This document shows, one piece after another, positions 28,093 through 38,142 of a stretch of DNA of 64,000 bases. The position numbers and the translations under genes were made by a program. The stretch spans positions 1 to 64,000 of the forward strand of contig JAVYMA010000008.1 in NCBI GenBank assembly GCA_038740345.1, in the 5' to 3' direction. Source of the stretch: Methanomassiliicoccales archaeon (GTDB lineage: Archaea > Thermoplasmatota > Thermoplasmata > Methanomassiliicoccales > UBA472). Each line of letters begins with the position of its first letter. Position 1 is the stretch's first letter. Under the pieces are notes generated by a model that saw only the letters and a program-made list of their open reading frames with translations, ran no database searches and had not been told where the DNA came from.

Positions 28093-31000
28093 TTATTTCC
28101 CTCCTTCCAGGGCGGCGTCGATTATGGCGTACATCTGCACATTCTTGAATCCCTTCTGCTCCATGGCCCCAGAAGGACAGGCTGCGACGCAAGTGCCGCA
28201 TCCTTTGCACAGACCTTCATTAACCACCGCCTTAAGCTTGTCTGGATTCGATGGGTCCTTGACTATAGTTATCGCCTTATATTCGCAGACGGGTTCGCAA
28301 ACACCGCAACCATTGCATATCATCTCATTGACTGCAGCGATGATTCCCTCCGTCTCGAGATAGTCGCGAGAGATCACCGTCATGGCCCTGGCTGCTGCGC
28401 CCGAAGCCTGAGCTATGCTCTCATCCATGAACTTGGGCCAATGGGCTAGTCCAGCGAGGTATACGCCGTTGGTAGCGAAATCCACCGGCCTTAGTTTCAT
28501 ATGGGCCTCAAGGAAGTAGCCATCCTTGCTTAACGGAACTTTCAAAGCTTTGGCCAATTCCTCGTTGTCGTGATACGGTCTTATGCCCACGGAGAGCACT
28601 ACAGCATCCGCAGGTATGCTCAACTTTTCCCCTAGCACTACATCGTTCACCAGGACCCTTAGCCCACTGCCGTGCTTCTCTACCTTCGGATCCTCGTTGT
28701 CAGGGAAGCGGACGAACCTAACGCCTAGCTCACCGGCCTCCTTGTAGTAATCCTCTCTGAAACCATAAGTTCTGATATCTTTGTGGAGGACATAGACCTC
28801 AGTGGAGGGGGAGGACTTCTTTATCTTGATAGCATTGCGCACGGCTTCAGTGCAGCATACCCTGCTGCAATAGGGTGCCTCATTATTCCTGGAGCCGACG
28901 CACTGAATCATGACCACGTTCTTGGCATTCAAGGGCCCAGCCATCATCTTCTCCTCAAGCTCCCACTGCGTCATCACCCTGGGATCGCCATACATGAATT
29001 CGCCAGGCTTGGGCTTGTATTGCTGGGCTCCCACAGCCACAATAATGGCCCCTGTCTCCAGTTCTTCACCTTTATTGGTCTTGACCTTGAAGTTGCCTAC
29101 AAAGCCTGACACATCAGTCACAGTCGTGTTAAGGTGAACGGTAATCCTGGGGCACGCTCGCACCTTGGATATGAGCTCATCCAGTCGTTTGGATGTGGGA
29201 ATACCGTTTTCCTCCGACTTGATGTTTCTCATATTGCCGCCTAGCTCACCCGATTTCTCGATCAGGTGCACATTGAATCCCTGCTCCGCCATATCCAAGG
29301 CAGCCGTCATCCCTGCTAGACCGCCACCGATGACCATGCCTGAGTGTAGAACGCCCAACTTGCTTTTGCTGAGGGGTTCAAGCAATCTGGCCTTGGCCAC
29401 AGCCATGCGAACCAAGTCTTTGCTCTTCTCCGTGGCCTTCTCTGGCTCATGCATGTGGATCCAAGAGCATTGATCACGGATGTTAGCCATTTCGAATAGA
29501 TAGGGATTCAGCCCTGCTTCTTTTATTGTGCTCTGGAACAGTGGTTCGTGCGTGCGTGGGGTACAGCTGGCCACCACTACACGATTCAGATTCAGCTCCT
29601 TTATCTTCTTCTTGATGTTCTCTTGGAAGTCTGCCGAGCATGTGTACTTGCCCTCTTCAGCATGGACCACATTGGGGAGAGTCTTAGCATATTCGACGAC
29701 TTTAGGAACATCCACTGTGCCACGGATGTTTATGCCGCAATCGCAAACGAACACCCCAATCCTTGGCTCTTGACCCGTGACGTCGATCTCGGGTATCTCA
29801 GGCGGCACATAATGTACCCTGTTTTTGTAAACCTGGGAACCAGCCTTGCATGCAGCACCTGATGCCTCCGCTACAGATTGAGGGATATCCTTAGGGGCGC
29901 TAAATGCACCAGTGACGTATATGCCCTTGCGGTTCGTGGACAACGGGTCGAAGACCGTGGTCTCGGCGAATCCGTATTTGTTCAATTTGATCCCCAAGGC
30001 CTCGGAAAGCTTGTGTGCGTCAGAGGGGGGCTCAAATCCCACAGAAAGGACCACCATATCGAACTCTTCCTGATTGGTCTCAGCTCCATTCGAATAGCGC
30101 AGTATCAACTTCTTGGTCTCTGGATCCTCCTCGACTGACGCTACCCTCACGCCCTTGTACATTTTAATGCCATACTCATTCTCTGCCCTCGCCCTATAAT
30201 CCTCAAACTCCTTACCGAAGGCTCTGATATCCATGAAGAATATGGTCGGTTTCAGTCCCTGTGTGTGTTCCTGAGCTATGATGGCCTGCTTCAAGGCGTA
30301 CATGCAGCAAACGCTCGAGCAGTATGTGTTCCCCACCTTGTCGTCCCTGGAGCCAACGCATTGCAGGAAGGCGACCTTCTGTGGAGTCACATGATCGCTA
30401 GGCCTCACAACGTGACCCTGGAAAGGACCAGTGGCTGAGAGGATGCGCTCGAATTCTAAGGATGTTACCACATTCTTGAACTCGCCATACCCATATTCCT
30501 TTTTTAGCTTGGCATCGAAGATCTCGTACCCAGGCGCCACCACTATGGCTCCTACATGTACCTTCTCAATAGTCTCTTTTTGCTCATAATCCACTGCGTC
30601 CGCAGGACATACCTTTTTGCAGTTGCCACAACGATTCTTAGTAAGATACAAGCACTTTGAAGCGTCAATCGAATACTTCATCGGTACGGCCTGCGCATAA
30701 GGCACATAGATAGCCTTCCTTTGAACCAGGCCGAGGTCATACTCATTCAATGCTTTCGAAGGACATTTCTCTGCGCACAGACCGCAACCTACACAACGAT
30801 CTTCCCTCACATACCTTGGTTTCCTTTTCAAGGTGACTTCGAAATTTGGCGCCTCCCCTTCCACCTTGACGACCTCAGTCAAGGTCATCATGGTTATCAT
30901 TGGATTCCTAGCCGCCTCAACAAGCTTGGGAGAAAGGATGCACATGGAGCAGTCGTTCGTGGGGAACGTCTTATCCAACTGTGCCATCACACCTCCTATG

Positions 31001-31116
31001 CTTGGCTTGCTCTCAATCATATACACCTTGAATCCAGACTCTGCTAGGTCCAAGGCAGTTTGGACGCCGGAGATGCCTCCGCCGACCACCATCACCGATC
31101 CAGTCTTCTTTTCCAT
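28093..31116 (-). CDS. hdrA: HdrA-type flavoprotein with two flavin modules
   Basis: A 1007-residue HdrA, far longer than the roughly 650 of classical methanogen HdrA. Residues 1-440 are an extra module: FAD site VVGGGISG (11-17), NDCSMC (C56, C59), a [4Fe-4S] motif C108-C111-C114-C118, a second with unusual spacing C155-x7-C163-C166-C170, and CSSVCC (266-271). From 452 comes a full HdrA: the N-terminal domain with CDCG, the FAD site VIGGGLAG (595-602), YCSRVCC (749-755), and two C-terminal ferredoxin motifs (C934-C944 and C970-C980). HdrA splits electrons from H2 between a disulfide and ferredoxin. GGAGGAG precedes the ATG. No hdrB or hdrC is in the window. Confidence 0.94.
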   Translation of the reverse strand: MEKKTGSVMVVGGGISGVQTALDLAESGFKVYMIESKPSIGGVMAQLDKTFPTNDCSMCILSPKLVEAARNPMITMMTLTEVVKVEGEAPNFEVTLKRKPRYVREDRCVGCGLCAEKCPSKALNEYDLGLVQRKAIYVPYAQAVPMKYSIDASKCLYLTKNRCGNCKKVCPADAVDYEQKETIEKVHVGAIVVAPGYEIFDAKLKKEYGYGEFKNVVTSLEFERILSATGPFQGHVVRPSDHVTPQKVAFLQCVGSRDDKVGNTYCSSVCCMYALKQAIIAQEHTQGLKPTIFFMDIRAFGKEFEDYRARAENEYGIKMYKGVRVASVEEDPETKKLILRYSNGAETNQEEFDMVVLSVGFEPPSDAHKLSEALGIKLNKYGFAETTVFDPLSTNRKGIYVTGAFSAPKDIPQSVAEASGAACKAGSQVYKNRVHYVPPEIPEIDVTGQEPRIGVFVCDCGINIRGTVDVPKVVEYAKTLPNVVHAEEGKYTCSADFQENIKKKIKELNLNRVVVASCTPRTHEPLFQSTIKEAGLNPYLFEMANIRDQCSWIHMHEPEKATEKSKDLVRMAVAKARLLEPLSKSKLGVLHSGMVIGGGLAGMTAALDMAEQGFNVHLIEKSGELGGNMRNIKSEENGIPTSKRLDELISKVRACPRITVHLNTTVTDVSGFVGNFKVKTNKGEELETGAIIVAVGAQQYKPKPGEFMYGDPRVMTQWELEEKMMAGPLNAKNVVMIQCVGSRNNEAPYCSRVCCTEAVRNAIKIKKSSPSTEVYVLHKDIRTYGFREDYYKEAGELGVRFVRFPDNEDPKVEKHGSGLRVLVNDVVLGEKLSIPADAVVLSVGIRPYHDNEELAKALKVPLSKDGYFLEAHMKLRPVDFATNGVYLAGLAHWPKFMDESIAQASGAAARAMTVISRDYLETEGIIAAVNEMICNGCGVCEPVCEYKAITIVKDPSNPDKLKAVVNEGLCKGCGTCVAACPSGAMEQKGFKNVQMYAIIDAALEGGK

Positions 31117-31425: not shown

Positions 31426-31717
31426 CCGATTAAGACTACCATATTTCAACGTTTTGAAAGTTACATTCGAAGCTTTTGATAGATGCATCGGCTCGCCTAC
31501 TTTCATCCTCTTACAATCATCATTTATAATTTCTTCGAAATTTCGTCTCCTATTTCCGAACGCCCTCTCCGAATGTGATGCATGACGGGTTCACGCAATT
31601 TCTCATCTGAACGCCAATCTTCCATTTCAGGCTGAGAGATAATGAGTACCTTCGCTGATAATCAAATTCGGTATCAGGAAGATACATAGTTTTAATTTCA
31701 ATTGAGATGGAACGCAT

Positions 31718-32491
31718 GTGTTGATAGAGTTGATATTAGCCTCTGTTGTCGGAGCTCTCTCCTTGGCCTCAGCCATGGCCATAAAGAGAACCTTCACCCA
31801 CACAGCATCACCTGGAATTCTTGAGGCCGTGGAAGTAAGGGCAGGGAACCTAAAGAGGGTTCTTTGGAGACCCGCTCGCAAAGCAGAAAGGCCTAGGGTT
31901 GTAGTGCAAGGCCCTAAAGTAAAGCCCATAGTATGCCAGATATGCATAGGGCGGATCAAGGAAGGGTTGGAATTCGCCAAATGCGGATGTGGAAGGACGT
32001 TTCATATCACCTGCCTGACACGCACTGCCTTCTGCCCTTACTGTAATGAGACTTTTAAGGATGGGGTACCTGAGGAACACATTGTGCGCCCCGCACCGCC
32101 GACAGAACTCAATGGAAGGAAAAAGCCTGAGGTGCGCATTCTCTGGGAGCCAGCGATTAGAAAATCTTGTCCGGTTTGCGGTCGAGAAATGGATGAGAAT
32201 GAAAGGGAGTGCGTCTGCGGGGCCATTATCATAGAGGAAGACGAAGTCTTCGAATGCCCCTCATGTGGGACGGAAGTGCCTGCCAATATGATGCAATGCC
32301 CTGGATGCAAAGAGAGATTCGACCTTGTAGAAGAGCCGATTTGCCCTATATGTGGGCTTTTAGTATCTTCCCAAGATGGGGTATGTGATTGCGGAGGGCT
32401 CGCTAAGGATGAGTGCCCCGAATGCGGTGCGTCGTTGGCACCGCAGGACACAAAATGCCCTTCTTGCGGGACGACTTTCGAGTTGGTTTAA
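31718..32491 (+). CDS. Membrane-anchored RING-like and zinc-ribbon protein
   Basis: Residues 1-22 are a hydrophobic anchor. Residues 73-109 hold C73-x2-C76-x12-C89-x-C91-x4-H96-x2-C99-x6-C106-x2-C109, a C4HC3 pattern like RING-CH or PHD fingers (CGCGRTFHITCLTRTAFCPYC). Four zinc ribbons follow with pairs at 151/154-165/167, 180/183-194/197, 209/212-223/225 and 233/236-247/250. RING domains mostly serve ubiquitin ligases or protein scaffolds; no ubiquitin-like, E1 or E2 gene is seen here, so a ligase role is only a possibility. The start is GTG at 31718. The next gene, on the same strand, is ftsZ. Confidence 0.75.
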   Translation: MLIELILASVVGALSLASAMAIKRTFTHTASPGILEAVEVRAGNLKRVLWRPARKAERPRVVVQGPKVKPIVCQICIGRIKEGLEFAKCGCGRTFHITCLTRTAFCPYCNETFKDGVPEEHIVRPAPPTELNGRKKPEVRILWEPAIRKSCPVCGREMDENERECVCGAIIIEEDEVFECPSCGTEVPANMMQCPGCKERFDLVEEPICPICGLLVSSQDGVCDCGGLAKDECPECGASLAPQDTKCPSCGTTFELV

Positions 32492-32551: not shown

Positions 32552-33646
32552 GTGCACATGAGGCCGAATAATGACTTTGCTTGCAGAAGGTCAGAAATGA
32601 GCATGGACGTTAACTCAGGAGGACCTGCTACTTCAGCTGAGGATGAAGAGCTTCGAAGACTTGTCGAACAATTCAAAGTAAAGATCACCATTATTGGATG
32701 TGGAGGCGGGGGATCAAATACCATTAGGCGCTTGGCTCAATCAGGAATATCTGATGTCACTCTGGTCGCAGCCAATAGCGATGCTCGGCATCTTCTCTCG
32801 GTGCAGGTGCCGAACAAGGTCCTTCTAGGCAGGACAAGAACGAAAGGCTTAGGTGCGGGTGCAATACCAGAAGTGGGTGCCGCAGCTGCCGAGGAAGCTA
32901 GGAATGAGCTGATGAGTTATATTGACGGCAGACAGATGGTCTTTATTACTGCTGGCATGGGGGGAGGGACCGGTACGGGCTCAGCACCAGTCATAGCAGA
33001 GATGGCGCGCATGAGGGGTGCATTGGTAATGGGAGTTGTTACCATGCCATTCAAGGCCGAGGGTAGGGTACGGATGGAGAATGCGCTTCGCGGTCTGAAC
33101 CGATTGAGGCAGCATTGCGATACCACCATCGTTATCCCGAACGACAGGCTACTAGAATTAGTTCCCAAGCTGCCATTGGAAGCCGCCTTCAAAGTGGCTG
33201 ACGAAGTATTGATGCAAAGCATAAAAGGAATAACTGAGGCATTAACTAAGCCGGGGCTAGTCAATGTCGATTTCAATGACCTCATGACCATAATGAAGAG
33301 CGGCGGCGTGGCCATGATTGGCTTGGGCGAGGGAACGAAAGAAGACGGCCGTTTGGAGAAAGTGGATAAAGCTGTGACCGAAGCTATGGGGTCGCCGCTT
33401 CTCGGAGATATCGATACCAGAGAAGCGCATGGCGCATTGATCAGAGTGGTAGGCGGACCGGATATGACAGTAAGCGAGGCAGAGAGGGCAGCTGAATTAG
33501 TAGCTCAGAAAGTCCGACCTGATGCGCGTATCATCTGGGGGTGTGCCATTGATCCTGCTATGGAGAACAGGATGAGAGTTATGGTCGTGGTTACAGGGGT
33601 GAAGTCCAATAACTTCCTCAGCCGCTATACGCTAGGGAAGTGCTAA
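32552..33646 (+). CDS. ftsZ: Cell division protein FtsZ
   Basis: A tubulin-fold GTPase that polymerises at the division site. Seen: CGGGGSNTIRRL (G1-type loop), the tubulin signature GMGGGTGTGSAP (135-146), and the T7-loop region VNVDFNDLMTIMKSGGVAMIG that completes the GTP site of the next subunit. The protein stops shortly after the GTPase/C-terminal domain with NNFLSRYTLGKC, so it lacks the long tail used by many FtsZs to bind partners. The first 30 residues vary in the family; starts at 32552 (GTG), 32558 and 32597 are possible. AATTTATACG near 32514 is a likely TATA box. Confidence 0.95.
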   Translation: MHMRPNNDFACRRSEMSMDVNSGGPATSAEDEELRRLVEQFKVKITIIGCGGGGSNTIRRLAQSGISDVTLVAANSDARHLLSVQVPNKVLLGRTRTKGLGAGAIPEVGAAAAEEARNELMSYIDGRQMVFITAGMGGGTGTGSAPVIAEMARMRGALVMGVVTMPFKAEGRVRMENALRGLNRLRQHCDTTIVIPNDRLLELVPKLPLEAAFKVADEVLMQSIKGITEALTKPGLVNVDFNDLMTIMKSGGVAMIGLGEGTKEDGRLEKVDKAVTEAMGSPLLGDIDTREAHGALIRVVGGPDMTVSEAERAAELVAQKVRPDARIIWGCAIDPAMENRMRVMVVVTGVKSNNFLSRYTLGKC

Positions 33647-33650
33647 AGAA

Positions 33651-33956
33651 ATGGTGGTGAAAGATAAGCGGGGTAGACGCCGGTATGTGGCCTTCAAATT
33701 AGTTTCAGAAAAACCTGTATCCACCGACGCCTTCATGAGCGCCTTGAAAAAATCAAGCCCTCCAGGAGGCAAGCCTCCCAAGTTGATACAATTCGATGGA
33801 AACCATGGGATAGTACGCTGCGAGCTTAAGGACCTAAATAATACTAGAGTCATATTATTAAAAATAGGCGAAGAGATGGGAGCGGAGATTCAAACCCTGA
33901 GTACATCTGGAACCCTGTTGGCTCTACGAAAAAGACTTGATCTCAAGAAAACATAG
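33651..33956 (+). CDS. rnp2: RNase P protein component 2 (Pop5-like)
   Basis: A 101-residue protein that pairs with Rpp30 to support the catalytic domain of RNase P RNA. Family features: RRRYVAFKLVSEKPVS at the start, DGNHGIVRCELKDLNNTRVILL in the centre and TLSTSGTLLALRKR at the end. It begins 5 nt after ftsZ. In many archaea pop5 precedes psmA, as it does here. Confidence 0.85.
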   Translation: MVVKDKRGRRRYVAFKLVSEKPVSTDAFMSALKKSSPPGGKPPKLIQFDGNHGIVRCELKDLNNTRVILLKIGEEMGAEIQTLSTSGTLLALRKRLDLKKT

Positions 33957-34105: not shown

Positions 34106-34831
34106 ATGATGCAGCCGGGACAAATGGCATACGATAGAGCCATAACAGTGTTTTCCCCTGACGGGCGTTTATTCCAGGTGGAATACGCTAGGGAAGCGGT
34201 CAAACGCGGAACGACCACGGTCGGTCTCAAATTCAAGAACGGAGTGGTTCTAATCGTTGATAAGAGGATAGCTAGCCGTCTAATGGAACCTAAGTCCATC
34301 GAGAAGATATTCCAAATCGATGGACATATCGGATGTGCCACATCTGGACTCGTGGCTGACGCGAGGATTTTAGTGGATCAGGCCAGGATTATCGCTCAGA
34401 TAAACAAAATAACCTATGATGAAAATATGAGTGTAGAGGAGCTGGTAAAGCGCATTTGCGATTACAAGCAGAACTACACTCAATACGGCGGAGTGCGTCC
34501 CTTTGGCACTGCCTTGTTGGTGGCAGGTGTGGACGAGCAAGGAGAACACCTCTTCGAAACCGATCCCAGTGGTGCTCTGGTATCATATAAAGCAGGCTCT
34601 ATTGGGGCAGGGCGCAATGCTGTGATGGAGGTATTCGAGGAGGAATACAAAGAAGGAATGGATATGGAGTCCGCCATAATCCTCGGCCTTAAAGCTCTGA
34701 AAAAAGCCACTGAGGAGGAGAAGCTCAACCCTAAAGCAGTTGAAATAGGAGTGGTGGTGAGGGGCGAGAACTTCAGGCGACTTGACGAGTCGGAGGTCGA
34801 GTCCTACATCGAAAAGGCTGAAGCCTCCTGA
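34106..34831 (+). CDS. psmA: Proteasome alpha subunit
   Basis: Forms the outer seven-membered rings of the 20S proteasome and gates entry. Seen: the N-terminal gate and signature [27 protein letters not shown], the [20 protein letters not shown] strand pair, and [17 protein letters not shown]. It has no catalytic N-terminal Thr, as expected of alpha. An ATG at 34109 is an equally good start. First gene of the psmA-sbds-rrp4-rrp41-rrp42-rpl37ae-rpoP-pcc1-pfdB run. Confidence 0.97.
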
Positions 34832-34841
34832 TGAGGTATAA

Positions 34842-35537
34842 ATGGTCGACATAGAAGATGCCATTATCGCTCGCTACGAGTCCCATGGGGAAACTTTCGA
34901 GATACTCATCGACCCCAAGGTGGTTAAGGCGCTGAAGGAAGGAAAGGATGTGAATCTTTATGACCACATGGTAGTCGATGAGATCTTCAAAAATGCGCAT
35001 AAGGGCACCAGGGCAGCAGAGGAGGATATCAGAAAAGTTTTCGGCACCACCGATGTCATGCAGGTGGCAAAAACTATCGTGCTCAAAGGAGAAGTACATT
35101 TAACCGCCGAGCAGCGCAAGGAGATGCTGGCAAACAAAAAAGCCAGGATTATATCAGAAATAGCCAGGAATGCCATAAATCCACAGACTGGTGCCCCGCA
35201 TACTCCTCAGCGGATCGAAATGGCGATGGAAGAGGCCAAAGTGCACATAGACGCTTTCAAGCCTGTAGAGCAGCAAGTCAAAGAAGTATTGGATAAGCTA
35301 AGACCCATCATTCCTATTCGTTTCGACAAGCTTCGCATCGCCGTGAAGCTGAGTGGCGAGGAGTACGGCCGCTGCTATGAAGATATGATACATTTCGGCA
35401 AGATACTAAGGGAAGAATGGCAGCCCAACGGCTCCTGGATAGGTGTGGTGGAGATACCAGCTGGCTTGAGAGACGACTTCTATGCCAAACTGAATGAGAA
35501 GACAAAGGGCAATGCGGAGACAAAGCAGTTGAAGTAA
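34842..35537 (+). CDS. Ribosome maturation protein SBDS (Sdo1)
   Basis: A 231-residue SBDS protein, which in eukaryotes releases eIF6 from the 60S subunit. The FYSH domain is [24 protein letters not shown]...[11 protein letters not shown], the middle helical domain includes [22 protein letters not shown] and TPHTPQRIE-like [15 protein letters not shown], and the C-terminal ferredoxin-like domain has [25 protein letters not shown]. It starts 10 nt after psmA with GATGAGGT upstream, in its conserved place before rrp4. Confidence 0.95.
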
Positions 35538-35599
35538 TGCAGCCCTTGTCTATTAAACATGCAGAACGCTAATGTGAATGGAGTATGAGAAGTGAGAAT

Positions 35600-36313
35600 A
35601 TGAATAAAGAAGGACAGGGGTCCTCCCGAGAAATAGTCCTGCCTGGAGATATGTTGGAACCAGTAGGGCGCATGAAAGCTGGTGCCGGGACCTATGTGGA
35701 AGACGGTAAGATATTTGCCGCCCAGGTGGGGATTAAGAGTATCAAATCGAATTTCGTCAACGTCATACCTCTCAGTGGTAGATATATTCCCACACCAGGG
35801 GATACTGTGATAGGCAAAGTAGTGGACATAGGGCCTTCCAATTGGCTCATAGACATCAATTCTCCCTATCCTGCTCCCTTGCATGTAAATGAAGTACCAT
35901 GGAGGGTGGATTTTGGCGACACAGCCAGATTCATGAATGTGGGAGATACGCTTCTTGCCAAGGTGCTTATGGTGGATGAGACGAAACGTGTCCAGGTGAC
36001 TATGAAGGAGCAAGGGTTGAGGAAGCTCCAAGGGGGCCAGATTGTTGAGATTTCCTACAGTAAGGTTCCCCGCGTGATAGGTAAAGGGGGGTCCATGATA
36101 CAAATAATCAAGAACATGACCAACACGCGCATCTTCGTGGGGCAGAATGGACGCATATGGCTTGACGGTGAGATTGAGAATATAGTTTTCGCGATTAGGG
36201 CAATAAAGATGATAGAGGAAAACGCGCAGACCATGCATTTGACGGAAAGGGTGAAGGAATATCTCGAATCTGTATGTAAACCAGCCTCAGTAGGAGATTC
36301 AGGAGAAGGGTGA
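35600..36313 (+). CDS. rrp4: Exosome RNA-binding subunit Rrp4
   Basis: Cap subunit that guides RNA into the archaeal exosome ring. Three domains: N-terminal ([25 protein letters not shown]), S1 ([26 protein letters not shown]) and a C-terminal KH domain ([17 protein letters not shown], with the GxxG loop written GKGG). An ATG at 35585 lies in frame, but the ATG at 35600 has a GTGAG site just before it. Followed 4 nt later by rrp41. Confidence 0.95.
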
Positions 36314-36317
36314 TGAA

Positions 36318-37088
36318 ATGGGTGGAAACAGTGATATAAAATTGATCAGCGACGATGGTATAAGGTTCGATGGCAGGAGGGTTGATGAGCTTCGTCCCAT
36401 ACGTATCGAGGCTGGGGTGCTCAAGCGCGCCGATGGGTCGGCATATGTGGAGTTCGGCAAGAACAAGGTTCTGGCTGCAGTCTACGGCCCAAGAGAATGC
36501 CATCCCCGACATATGCAAGACCCAGCCAAGGCTATCGTACAATGCAAGTACAACATGATCGCCTTTTCGGTGAGTGACAGGAAGAGGCCAGGGCCTGACA
36601 GGAGATCGGTGGAGATATCTAAGATAATCTCTGAGGCTTTGGAGTATGTGGTATTCACAGAAAATTTCCCTAGAACCTCTATTGACGTATACATCGAAGT
36701 ACTTCAGGCCAATGCTGGGACCAGATGCGCGGGGCTTACCGCCGCTAGTGTAGCCCTAGCCGATGCTGGCATACCGATGAGAGATTTAGTTCCTGCAGTG
36801 GCCGTGGGCAAAGTAAATGATCAAGTAGTGCTCGACTTGCAAAAGGAGGAGGATAATTTTGGACAGGCGGACCTCCCCATCGCCATGATCCCGCGCACTG
36901 GTGAGATACTCCTGCTGCAGATGGATGGGCATATGACGCGAGCGGAATTCGACCGGGCCATAGAAATGGGTGTGAGGGCGTGCAAGCGCATCTACGAAAT
37001 GCAGAAGGATGCCCTAGCTAGGCGTTACGCCGTGGAGAAGGTCTTGGACGATCCAATCGAAGATACCATGCCTGAGCAGGAGGGATGA
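36318..37088 (+). CDS. rrp41: Exosome catalytic subunit Rrp41
   Basis: Phosphorolytic RNase PH-fold subunit that degrades RNA 3' to 5'. Seen: [16 protein letters not shown], the [21 protein letters not shown] strand set, the RNA-binding [10 protein letters not shown] basic loop, and [19 protein letters not shown]. The active-site Asp region is [22 protein letters not shown]. Length 256 is normal. Its stop overlaps the start of rrp42 by 4 nt (ATGA), consistent with coupled synthesis of the 1:1 ring. Confidence 0.96.
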
Positions 37089-37864
37089 GGTTGGCGCGGA
37101 CCGTAATATCTGAAATTAAACGAGATCACATCCATAAGCTGTTGGCAAAGGGCCGAAGAGTGGACGGTAGGGCTTGGGATGAGTATAGGCCTATCAGCAT
37201 CCAACCTGGTTTCTCCGAAACCGCTGAAGGCAGTGCTAGGGTGCGTCTCGGGAATACAGATGTCCTCGTGGGGGTAAAGATGTCCTTGGGAGAGCCCTTC
37301 GCCGACACCCCTAATAAAGGAGTGCTGAGCACCAATGCTGAGTTAATACCTCTAGCCTCTCCCACCTTTGAGGCCGGGCCTCCAGATGAAAATTCCATAG
37401 AACTTGCTCGGGTAGTCGACCGCGGCATTCGCGAGTCGCAGATGATCGACCTGGAAGCGCTATGCATCGAGCCAGGAAAGGAAGTCTGGATAATGTTCGT
37501 CGACATTTATGTACTGGACTATGACGGTAATCTGTTCGATGCCTCGTTCCTAGGCTCTGTGGCGGCGTTGAAGAATACCATTGTTCCTGCCAAGGCCAAT
37601 GATAGAGGTGATGATTTCCCTCTTCCAATTAAGCACATGCCCATGAGCGTGACGGCCGTGCAAATAGAAAACTCTATATTGGTCGATCCGACTCTCGACG
37701 AAGAGAAGGTCGCAGAGGCCAGGCTGACCGTCACAACCGACGAGAACGGCGATTTGAGGGCCATGCAGAAAGGGTTGGCCGGTGCGCTGACCCTGGACCA
37801 GGTATATAAGGTGATTGAGACCTCTCAACGCCTGGGGAATGACCTTAGGAAATTGATTGGGTGA
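37085..37864 (+). CDS. rrp42: Exosome subunit Rrp42
   Basis: Second RNase PH-fold subunit of the hexameric exosome ring; inactive itself but needed to shape the site in Rrp41. Seen: [74 protein letters not shown] and [13 protein letters not shown] (given in parts). It overlaps rrp41 at its start, and the next gene begins within 10 nt of its end. Confidence 0.95.
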
Positions 37865-37869
37865 TGCAA

Positions 37870-38142
37870 ATGGCAAAAGGAACGGTGAAGGCCGGTACCG
37901 CAGGGCGTTTCGGCGCTCGCTACGGTGTGGTCGTCAGGAAACTCACCAGGGATATAGAAAAGGTGGAGAAGGCTCGCTATGAGTGCCCTACTTGCCACCA
38001 TGTTTCAGTGAAGCGCAAGGCCTCGGGGATTTGGCAATGCAAACATTGTGACGCCAAGTTCGCAGCCGCCTCCTATTCCCCCTTCACTAAGAAATTGCTA
38101 GCAGAAGAAGGAATGGAGGAAAAGGCGGAGGGAAAAAAGTAA
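37870..38142 (+). CDS. rpl37ae: Ribosomal protein L37Ae (L43e)
   Basis: A zinc-ribbon large-subunit protein of 90 residues. N-terminus GTAGRFGARYGVVVRK, then the zinc site CPTCHHVSVKRKASGIWQCKHC (C2-C2, in two halves) and the GDAKFAAASYSP-type end, here CDAKFAAASYSPFTKK. The frame also opens at GTG 37861, but the ATG at 37870 has GGTGAT at 5 nt. The C-terminal extension is Glu/Lys-rich. Confidence 0.95.
   Translation: MAKGTVKAGTAGRFGARYGVVVRKLTRDIEKVEKARYECPTCHHVSVKRKASGIWQCKHCDAKFAAASYSPFTKKLLAEEGMEEKAEGKK

Follow-up and report, generated by a model that had tools for sequence, protein, structure and literature searches.

What does a RING-like zinc finger do when it is joined to a membrane helix and four zinc ribbons, and encoded at the head of a string of proteasome and exosome genes? 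The question is raised by one gene in the window, by which we mean the whole stretch of DNA analysed: 64,000 nucleotides of a Methanomassiliicoccales archaeon (assembly GCA_038740345.1, contig JAVYMA010000008.1). The original prediction allowed two answers: an archaeal relative of RING-type adaptors or ligases, or a scaffold near the division machinery. Our reading, to which we give a probability of about 0.8, is that the protein is a RING-type E3 ligase of an archaeal ubiquitin-like system, tethered to the membrane in this organism; the activity is predicted from sequence and structural models.

A membrane helix, a zinc finger and four zinc ribbons

The gene (31718-32491, + strand) begins with GTG and codes for 257 amino acids. 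Sequence, model and alignment together bear out the architecture first proposed for its product, namely an N-terminal membrane helix, a C4HC3 finger and four zinc ribbons:

31704..31711, + strand: likely ribosome-binding stretch, GAGATGGA, 6 nt 5' of the GTG (from direct reading of the sequence)
31718..32491, + strand: gene for the transmembrane, RING and zinc-ribbon protein, a predicted E3 ligase (open reading frame and orthologues; starts align in near relatives)
31721..31777, + strand: N-terminal transmembrane helix, residues 2-20 (Kyte-Doolittle 2.06 over 19 residues; AlphaFold2 helix 2-29)
31934..32044, + strand: RING domain, residues 73-109, with C4HC3 ligands (alignment, AlphaFold2, Foldseek and profile)
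32168..32218, + strand: zinc ribbon 1, C151, C154, C165, C167 (invariant in the alignment; zinc-ribbon/DZR class in Pfam)
32255..32308, + strand: zinc ribbon 2, C180, C183, C194, C197 (invariant in the alignment; DZR)
32342..32392, + strand: zinc ribbon 3, C209, C212, C223, C225 (not in the shorter f2 orthologues)
32414..32467, + strand: zinc ribbon 4, C233, C236, C247, C250 (Zn_ribbon_3, best stretch 232-252; not in the shorter f2 orthologues)

Residues 73-109 read CQICIGRIKEGLEFAKCGCGRTFHITCLTRTAFCPYC. The ligand spacing, C73-x2-C76-x12-C89-x-C91-x4-H96-x2-C99-x6-C106-x2-C109, is exactly that originally described, and a central helix follows H96-x2-C99. The ribbons alternate in form, two being C-x2-C...C-x-C-G and two C-x2-C...C-x2-C. 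K22-R23 come after the membrane helix, so the remainder of the protein is expected in the cytosol.

The finger is predicted to be a cross-brace RING

AlphaFold2 modelled the RING with a pLDDT of ~97 in the whole protein and ~95 for the RING alone (overall about 95-98). When the RING-only model was compared with the PDB by Foldseek, the best 50 matches were all RING E3 domains, which places it among cross-brace RING E3 ligases (RNF12, RNF165, PRC1); the match to RNF12, one of the top neighbours, has a probability of 1.00 and an rmsd of 2.0 over 47 columns. The Foldseek E-values are weak (0.007-0.07) because the domain is tiny, about 45 residues. In profile searches the family matched RING E3s, RNF4 (8.4e-7), RNF165 (2.1e-6) and Arkadia (2.8e-6), with matches also to AMFR and synoviolin. 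The zf-RING_2 profile is matched by all 37 members searched (single-member E-values down to 1.5e-6), individual members scoring under the Pfam gathering thresholds for RING domains (22.6 bits for the window RING, below a cut-off of 27.3). From the model and the structural and profile matches, a cross-brace RING fold is predicted; the modelled structure resembles RING E3s rather than two independent zinc ribbons.

The spacing had been described as very close to RING-CH and PHD fingers. It does equal that of RING-CH, but profile and structure point to RING E3s. The window RING matches zf-RING_2 at 1.3e-4 as against 0.054 for PHD (PF00628), and the family profile matches the Pygopus PHD at 0.0017 as against its 8.4e-7 for RNF4. 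Among the Pfam matches listed there is no RING-CH family; the family profile gave one weak match to DOA10 (0.02). With PHD so far under zf-RING_2, and neither RING-CH nor PHD among the best 50 Foldseek matches of the RING-only model, we rejected identity with either. More generally, that the region is no RING at all, and consists of two or more tandem zinc ribbons or of a PHD or RING-CH finger, is hardly credible: the resemblance of its C-x-C-G piece to the knuckles of the ribbons downstream, and the RING-CH spacing, are set against the AlphaFold2 model, the Foldseek and profile matches and the central helix.

Conservation within the order

A protein search found close orthologues in most of 61 relatives, and a scan of named genomes matched only Methanomassiliicoccales and related MAG names; on sequence similarity, orthologues of the RING protein occur throughout the Methanomassiliicoccales. 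Nine positions (C73, C76, C89, G92, H96, C99, C106, P107 and C109) are invariant in 32 aligned orthologues. Conservation of the eight ligands accordingly holds for seven of them in this alignment but not for C91, which gives way to T or S in f6 and is otherwise changed in a few members; f6 retains E2 (see below) despite this loss. Since orthologues can be aligned across the order with seven ligands invariant, the RING pattern is not a product of chance.

Other parts vary. Members of family f2 (by its inferred name, probably Methanomethylophilaceae) are shorter and have the first two ribbons only. The membrane helix exceeds a Kyte-Doolittle value of 1.6 in 28 of 46 orthologues and is missing in 18; f2 shows it clearly, as do many members of f1 and f3-f5, but f6 and genus g7 do not. 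Its presence in some lineages only makes tethering a lineage feature, the lineage of the window protein included.

The positions at which a RING docks its E2 are kept in all 46 orthologues: position 75 is I, M, V or L (I75 here), and a proline (P107) precedes the eighth ligand, C8. After that last cysteine, where a basic linchpin residue was looked for, the window protein has N110; K or R stands at C8+1 in 5 of the 46 and at C8+2 in 26. Such a residue favours E3 activity and does not define a RING E3. The helix tryptophan of many E3 RINGs is absent.

The RING gene heads a proteasome-exosome string

A survey of loci across the Methanomassiliicoccales showed the RING gene to be the first gene of the proteasome-exosome string. 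Its surroundings in the window are as follows:

28093-31116, - strand: HdrA-type gene, adjoining Mvh-type genes; it and the RING gene are divergent throughout the order
32552..33646, + strand: ftsZ, the next gene 3' of the RING gene (PF00091, 1.1e-47); linkage missing in family f2
33651..33956, + strand: Rpp14/Pop5-type RNase P subunit (PF01900, 0.0083); place conserved
34106..34831, + strand: psmA, proteasome alpha subunit (PF00227, 8.7e-66); conserved co-directional neighbour of the RING gene
34842..38142, + strand: open reading frames that we take, from established knowledge of this superoperon, to be SBDS, Rrp4, Rrp41, Rrp42 and an L37Ae-type ribosomal protein; relatives show the same order

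The neighbourhood was thus correctly described: the gene lies before ftsZ, which starts at 32552, and 2.4 kb, measured from its own start, from the proteasome alpha gene, which starts at 34106. The idea of a scaffold near the division machinery fares worse. In most families ftsZ comes straight after the RING gene, and in two families outside the order, f8 and f19, a RING-plus-ribbon gene is again found near FtsZ (in f19 it adjoins FtsZ-Pop5-PsmA), as might be expected of a cell-division scaffold or a regulator acting on FtsZ. Family f2, however, keeps the RING gene at the locus with no ftsZ, the RING gene running straight into Pop5-PsmA, and f6 genomes without the RING gene keep ftsZ in place (L174, L175). 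We consider a role of this kind very improbable.

The same genome encodes an E1, a ubiquitin-like protein, an E2 and a JAMM protease

A RING E3 would need partners, and a search for ubiquitin-like, E1 and E2 proteins found the full set in one operon of the same genome. The E2 profile (PF00179) matches contig C15 of the window's own assembly (G000), outside the window:

L126:8610-10901 (G000, contig C15), - strand: E1-Ubl(GG)-E2-Rpn11-like JAMM operon

The E1 is of ThiF type (ThiF, 1.6e-54). The Ubl (ubiquitin-like protein) has 79 amino acids and the C-terminus PDPEGG, a tail that is conserved (PDPQGG in a few members) and in some members followed by one or more residues. The E2 (UQ_con, 3.6e-13) has an HPN motif and a catalytic C102, both invariant in the family, and the JAMM protein (JAB, 1.8e-14) has the motif HSHPG...S..D. 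Family profiles relate these proteins to eukaryotic ones: the JAMM family is closest to eukaryotic Rpn11 (2.7e-27), the E2 family matches UBE2E1/Rad6-type E2s (2.4e-15), and the Ubl family matches di-ubiquitin at 1.8e-5, the value quoted here because that for polyubiquitin (3.5e-18) is inflated by its repeats. When 14 Ubl members were searched with Pfam, 11 matched YukD and 11 matched ubiquitin. The operon is conserved across the phylum, and E2 profile matches occur in other classes also.

Two kinds of candidate were discarded. An in-frame TGA in the E2 matches of G036, G264, G328 and G331 is not selenocysteine; it is the normal stop, standing at the C-terminal end of the reading frames. The supposed Ubl frames of L140 and L145 were left out; they are long and probably overlap the true gene or match themselves.

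The RING and the E2 are lost together

If the RING protein works with this E2, then the two should share a distribution. Among 116 Methanomassiliicoccales genomes that are at least 80% complete, 74 have both, 37 have neither and 5 are discordant (Fisher p 2.5e-24, uncorrected for relatedness). Three discordant genomes have the E2 only (G021, G328 and G355, 81-87% complete) and two the RING only. One of the latter is spurious: the RING match in G213 (1.1e-4) is a 33-aa open frame spanning half of the domain. The other, G295 (91% complete), has a RING and no E2, Ubl or JAMM. Every positive genome of the order has exactly one RING, so that one RING goes with one E2.

On a tree of PsmA and SBDS, some nodes of which are weakly supported, the absences fall into at least five separate clades (f6/g18, f6/g12, f2/g21, f2/g13 and f2/g26); the count of losses is higher if regain is excluded. 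Most of these genomes without RING and E2 are also without the operon's Ubl and JAMM. In 11 genomes lacking the E2, HdrA-(FtsZ)-Pop5-PsmA is intact and the RING gene alone is missing from the locus. These genomes bear on a further explanation, in which the protein is an E2-independent zinc scaffold for assembly of the proteasome, exosome or RNase P, its RING being an interaction platform only. The conserved place in the proteasome-exosome string would suit a scaffold, but flanking genes that are kept where the RING is gone do not need it, and its loss tracks the Ubl operon.

RING domains in the wider phylum

The RING profile matches 163 of 300 genomes of the Thermoplasmata class, and the statement that such fingers are rare in archaea needs changing. 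At this level 97 of 98 E2-bearing genomes carry a RING, and 66 of the 163 RING-bearing genomes have no detectable E2; the RING domain can therefore exist without this E2. The excess seems to consist largely of giant helical proteins that end in a RING. The combination of RING and ribbons occurs in 34 further genomes of the class outside the order, of which 30 have an E2, the remaining four being 72-92% complete. The zinc scaffold draws some support from the 66 genomes and from RING domains carried by an exosortase, a DUF835 protein and a Kelch protein; against it stands the coincidence of the RING-plus-ribbon architecture with E2 in those 30 genomes, and overall we judge it quite improbable.

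Elsewhere in the phylum RING genes lie with or near the conjugation genes. G376 (L200) has a RING-E1-Ubl-E2-JAMM string in which the RING gene overlaps the E1 gene by 4 bp; the RING protein looks secreted or transmembrane, with its RING C-terminal, and the reading frame of the JAMM is either interrupted or truncated by the end of the contig. In G362 and G371 (L186, L188) the gene of a ~3,000-aa RING protein ends 70-130 bp before Ubl-E2-JAMM, and in G384 (L202) a giant RING gene ends 4 bp before E2-JAMM. Three f11 genomes have a giant RING gene divergent from a Ubl-E2 fusion gene, with a gap of about 160-210 bp. A RING of the window type lies 7-8 kb from the operon in three f2/g24 genomes (G206, G292 and G314).

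The giant proteins, of 1,450-3,050 aa with helical repeats and a RING at or near the C-terminus, are found across the Thermoplasmatota (L101, L103, L107, L109, L112, L114, L116, L117, L186, L188, L202); in three genomes their genes are directly upstream of Ubl-E2-JAMM or E2-JAMM, yet such proteins are also found where no E2 is detectable. The same RING is fused to an exosortase-like membrane protein (L105:641-1843), to a membrane protein with a DUF835 domain (L104:4219-7305) and to a Kelch-repeat protein with a membrane helix (L113:5674-9468). In RING-ribbon proteins from outside the order (L099, L100, L102, L111) a SHOCT-like segment, LxxEEKLxLLEERLLLGEISEGTY, lies between RING and ribbons.

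Comparison with known systems

Caldiarchaeum subterraneum has an E1/E2/srfp (RING)/Rpn11 ubiquitylation system (PMC5654768, PMC6043591). In the reconstituted cascade the RING protein is needed for conjugation, which mutation of its I30 abolishes (PMC5654768). By its published description that system is like the present one in its full set of Ubl, E1, E2, RING protein and Rpn11-like JAMM. The E3-contact motifs of its E2, PxxPP and D/ExWSP (PMC5654768), are largely kept here as P-x-x-K-P and D/E-x-W-S-F, loop 7 ending in F where the motif has P. In srfp, which has an extra Cys, C3/H4 are offset by two residues (PMC5654768), comparable to a two-residue insertion in the window RING. There, however, the genes form one cluster and the RING protein is small; here it is larger (RING, four ribbons and helix) and encoded off the operon, beside psmA, the Ubl also resembles YukD, and the E1 is a short ThiF/MoeB-type protein. 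One operon does hold E1, GG-ended Ubl, E2 with catalytic Cys and JAMM. The RING gene is unlinked to it in the window's genome (contigs C8 and C15); elsewhere in the phylum it is co-operonic (G376) or clustered (G362, G371, G384).

The Asgard ubiquitin system is described as likewise an archaeal E1/E2/RING set (PMC5654768), in a different archaeal phylum. Bacterial E1/E2/JAB operons (types 6a-6e; PMC1779556) and the PADLOC E1-E2 systems also combine Ubl, E1, E2 and JAB, and the E1 of the window's genome matches PADLOC E1-E2 models at about 1e-13. Unlike theirs, the E2 here retains the HPN motif and can be aligned to eukaryotic E2s; the JAMM is Rpn11-like, there is a RING partner, and no defence context was seen. 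With eukaryotic RNF13, HRD1, AMFR and RNF165/RNF12 the window protein shares the RING fold and, for some, membrane tethering; it differs in that the linchpin Arg and helix Trp are not conserved, in its C4HC3 ligands with a two-residue insertion, and in a zinc-ribbon array that replaces the usual substrate domains.

A predicted E3 ligase

By analogy with the reconstituted Caldiarchaeum cascade, the window protein would be the E3. The kinship with RING-type ligases first proposed for it is strongly supported: by the predicted fold and profile matches, and by the E1/Ubl/E2/JAMM set, the co-loss and the co-operonic relatives, all read from sequence. The weak points are the N110 at the linchpin position, the lack of the helix Trp, the loss of C91 in f6, the unlinked operon and the RING-bearing genomes without E2.

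Some of these features would suit a protein that belongs to the Ubl system without being its E3: a receptor or adaptor whose ribbons bind Ubl or clients, and whose RING and helix recruit them, or perhaps the E2 instead, to the membrane or proteasome. The missing linchpin residue, the C91 loss, the long ribbon array and the gene string shared with psmA are in keeping with this, and the co-loss and co-operonic data fit it equally well. It would, however, leave the E2 with no RING E3, the protein being the sole RING in each E2-bearing genome of the order; moreover, the nearest structures are E3 RINGs, and srfp, the RING protein of Caldiarchaeum, acts as an E3 in vitro (PMC5654768). A receptor or adaptor is in our view unlikely.

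As an E3, the protein would act in a pathway of the following kind. Where the C-terminal GG is followed by further residues, the JAMM would mature the Ubl; the ThiF-type E1 would adenylate the PDPEGG-tailed Ubl and pass it to C102 of the E2. The cross-brace RING would then use its hydrophobic knuckle (I75, P107) to dock E2~Ubl, and would promote transfer to substrate lysines, binding and ligase activity both being predictions. The ribbon array may hold the substrate, the Ubl or a partner, and the N-terminal helix would, given its presumed topology, confine the reaction to the inner face of the membrane. Tags would be removed by the Rpn11-like JAMM, and the probable destination of tagged clients is the 20S proteasome, the alpha subunit of which is encoded in the same string as the RING protein. 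We infer the substrates, the direction of the helix and delivery to the proteasome from that gene string with psmA and from the Rpn11-like JAMM. A broader proposal is tentative: the Methanomassiliicoccales might run a membrane-associated ubiquitin-proteasome route in which one tethered RING E3, its gene accompanying that of the proteasome alpha subunit, attaches a YukD/ubiquitin-like modifier to proteins in the membrane or bound to it, followed by Rpn11-type trimming and proteasomal degradation. If true, a methanogen outside Asgard would have its own equivalent of ER-associated degradation.

The kind of system is already known, from Aigarchaeota and Asgard: archaeal E1/E2/RING ubiquitylation has been reconstituted from an uncultured archaeon and reported in Asgard archaea (PMC5654768). 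In the open literature we found no report of such a system in the Methanomassiliicoccales or Thermoplasmatota, nor any description of a tethered RING-ribbon E3 whose gene lies among those of the proteasome and exosome, off the operon, in a methanogen lineage. Burroughs, Iyer and Aravind, surveying prokaryotic RING fingers in 2011, reportedly predicted prokaryotic RING E3s and conjugation of YukD-like Ubls; the possible coverage of these genes by their survey is the main uncertainty on novelty. The phylum includes methanogens in culture; a eukaryote-style tagging pathway is here placed in a group with cultured members, unrelated to the uncultured archaea in which such systems were first shown. 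Because the system is phylum-wide and repeatedly lost together with a RING gene that adjoins proteasome genes, the origin of RING E3s and the link between ubiquitin and proteasome become testable outside Asgard, genetically and biochemically.

Variants of the conjugation operon

At L153-L157 (f2, g13) the operon JAMM is without HxHPG, a possible loss of deconjugation; at four of these loci the Ubl ends exactly in GG. Some genomes without E2 have orphan Ubl-like frames (G035:C2:10522-10740, G058:C1:774490-774723, G060:C1:212725-212940), the matches stopping before the GG tail. The E2s of L134 and L135 (G074, G084; f20) resemble eukaryotic E2s much more strongly (UQ_con, 84 and 78 bits) and lie beside E1 and JAMM genes. 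Fusions of Ubl and E2 occur in f11 (L146:1552-2238, L147:4408-5094, L148:9842-10504) and in G084 (L136:7339-8028); the E2 of the L146 fusion appears to be without the catalytic Cys.
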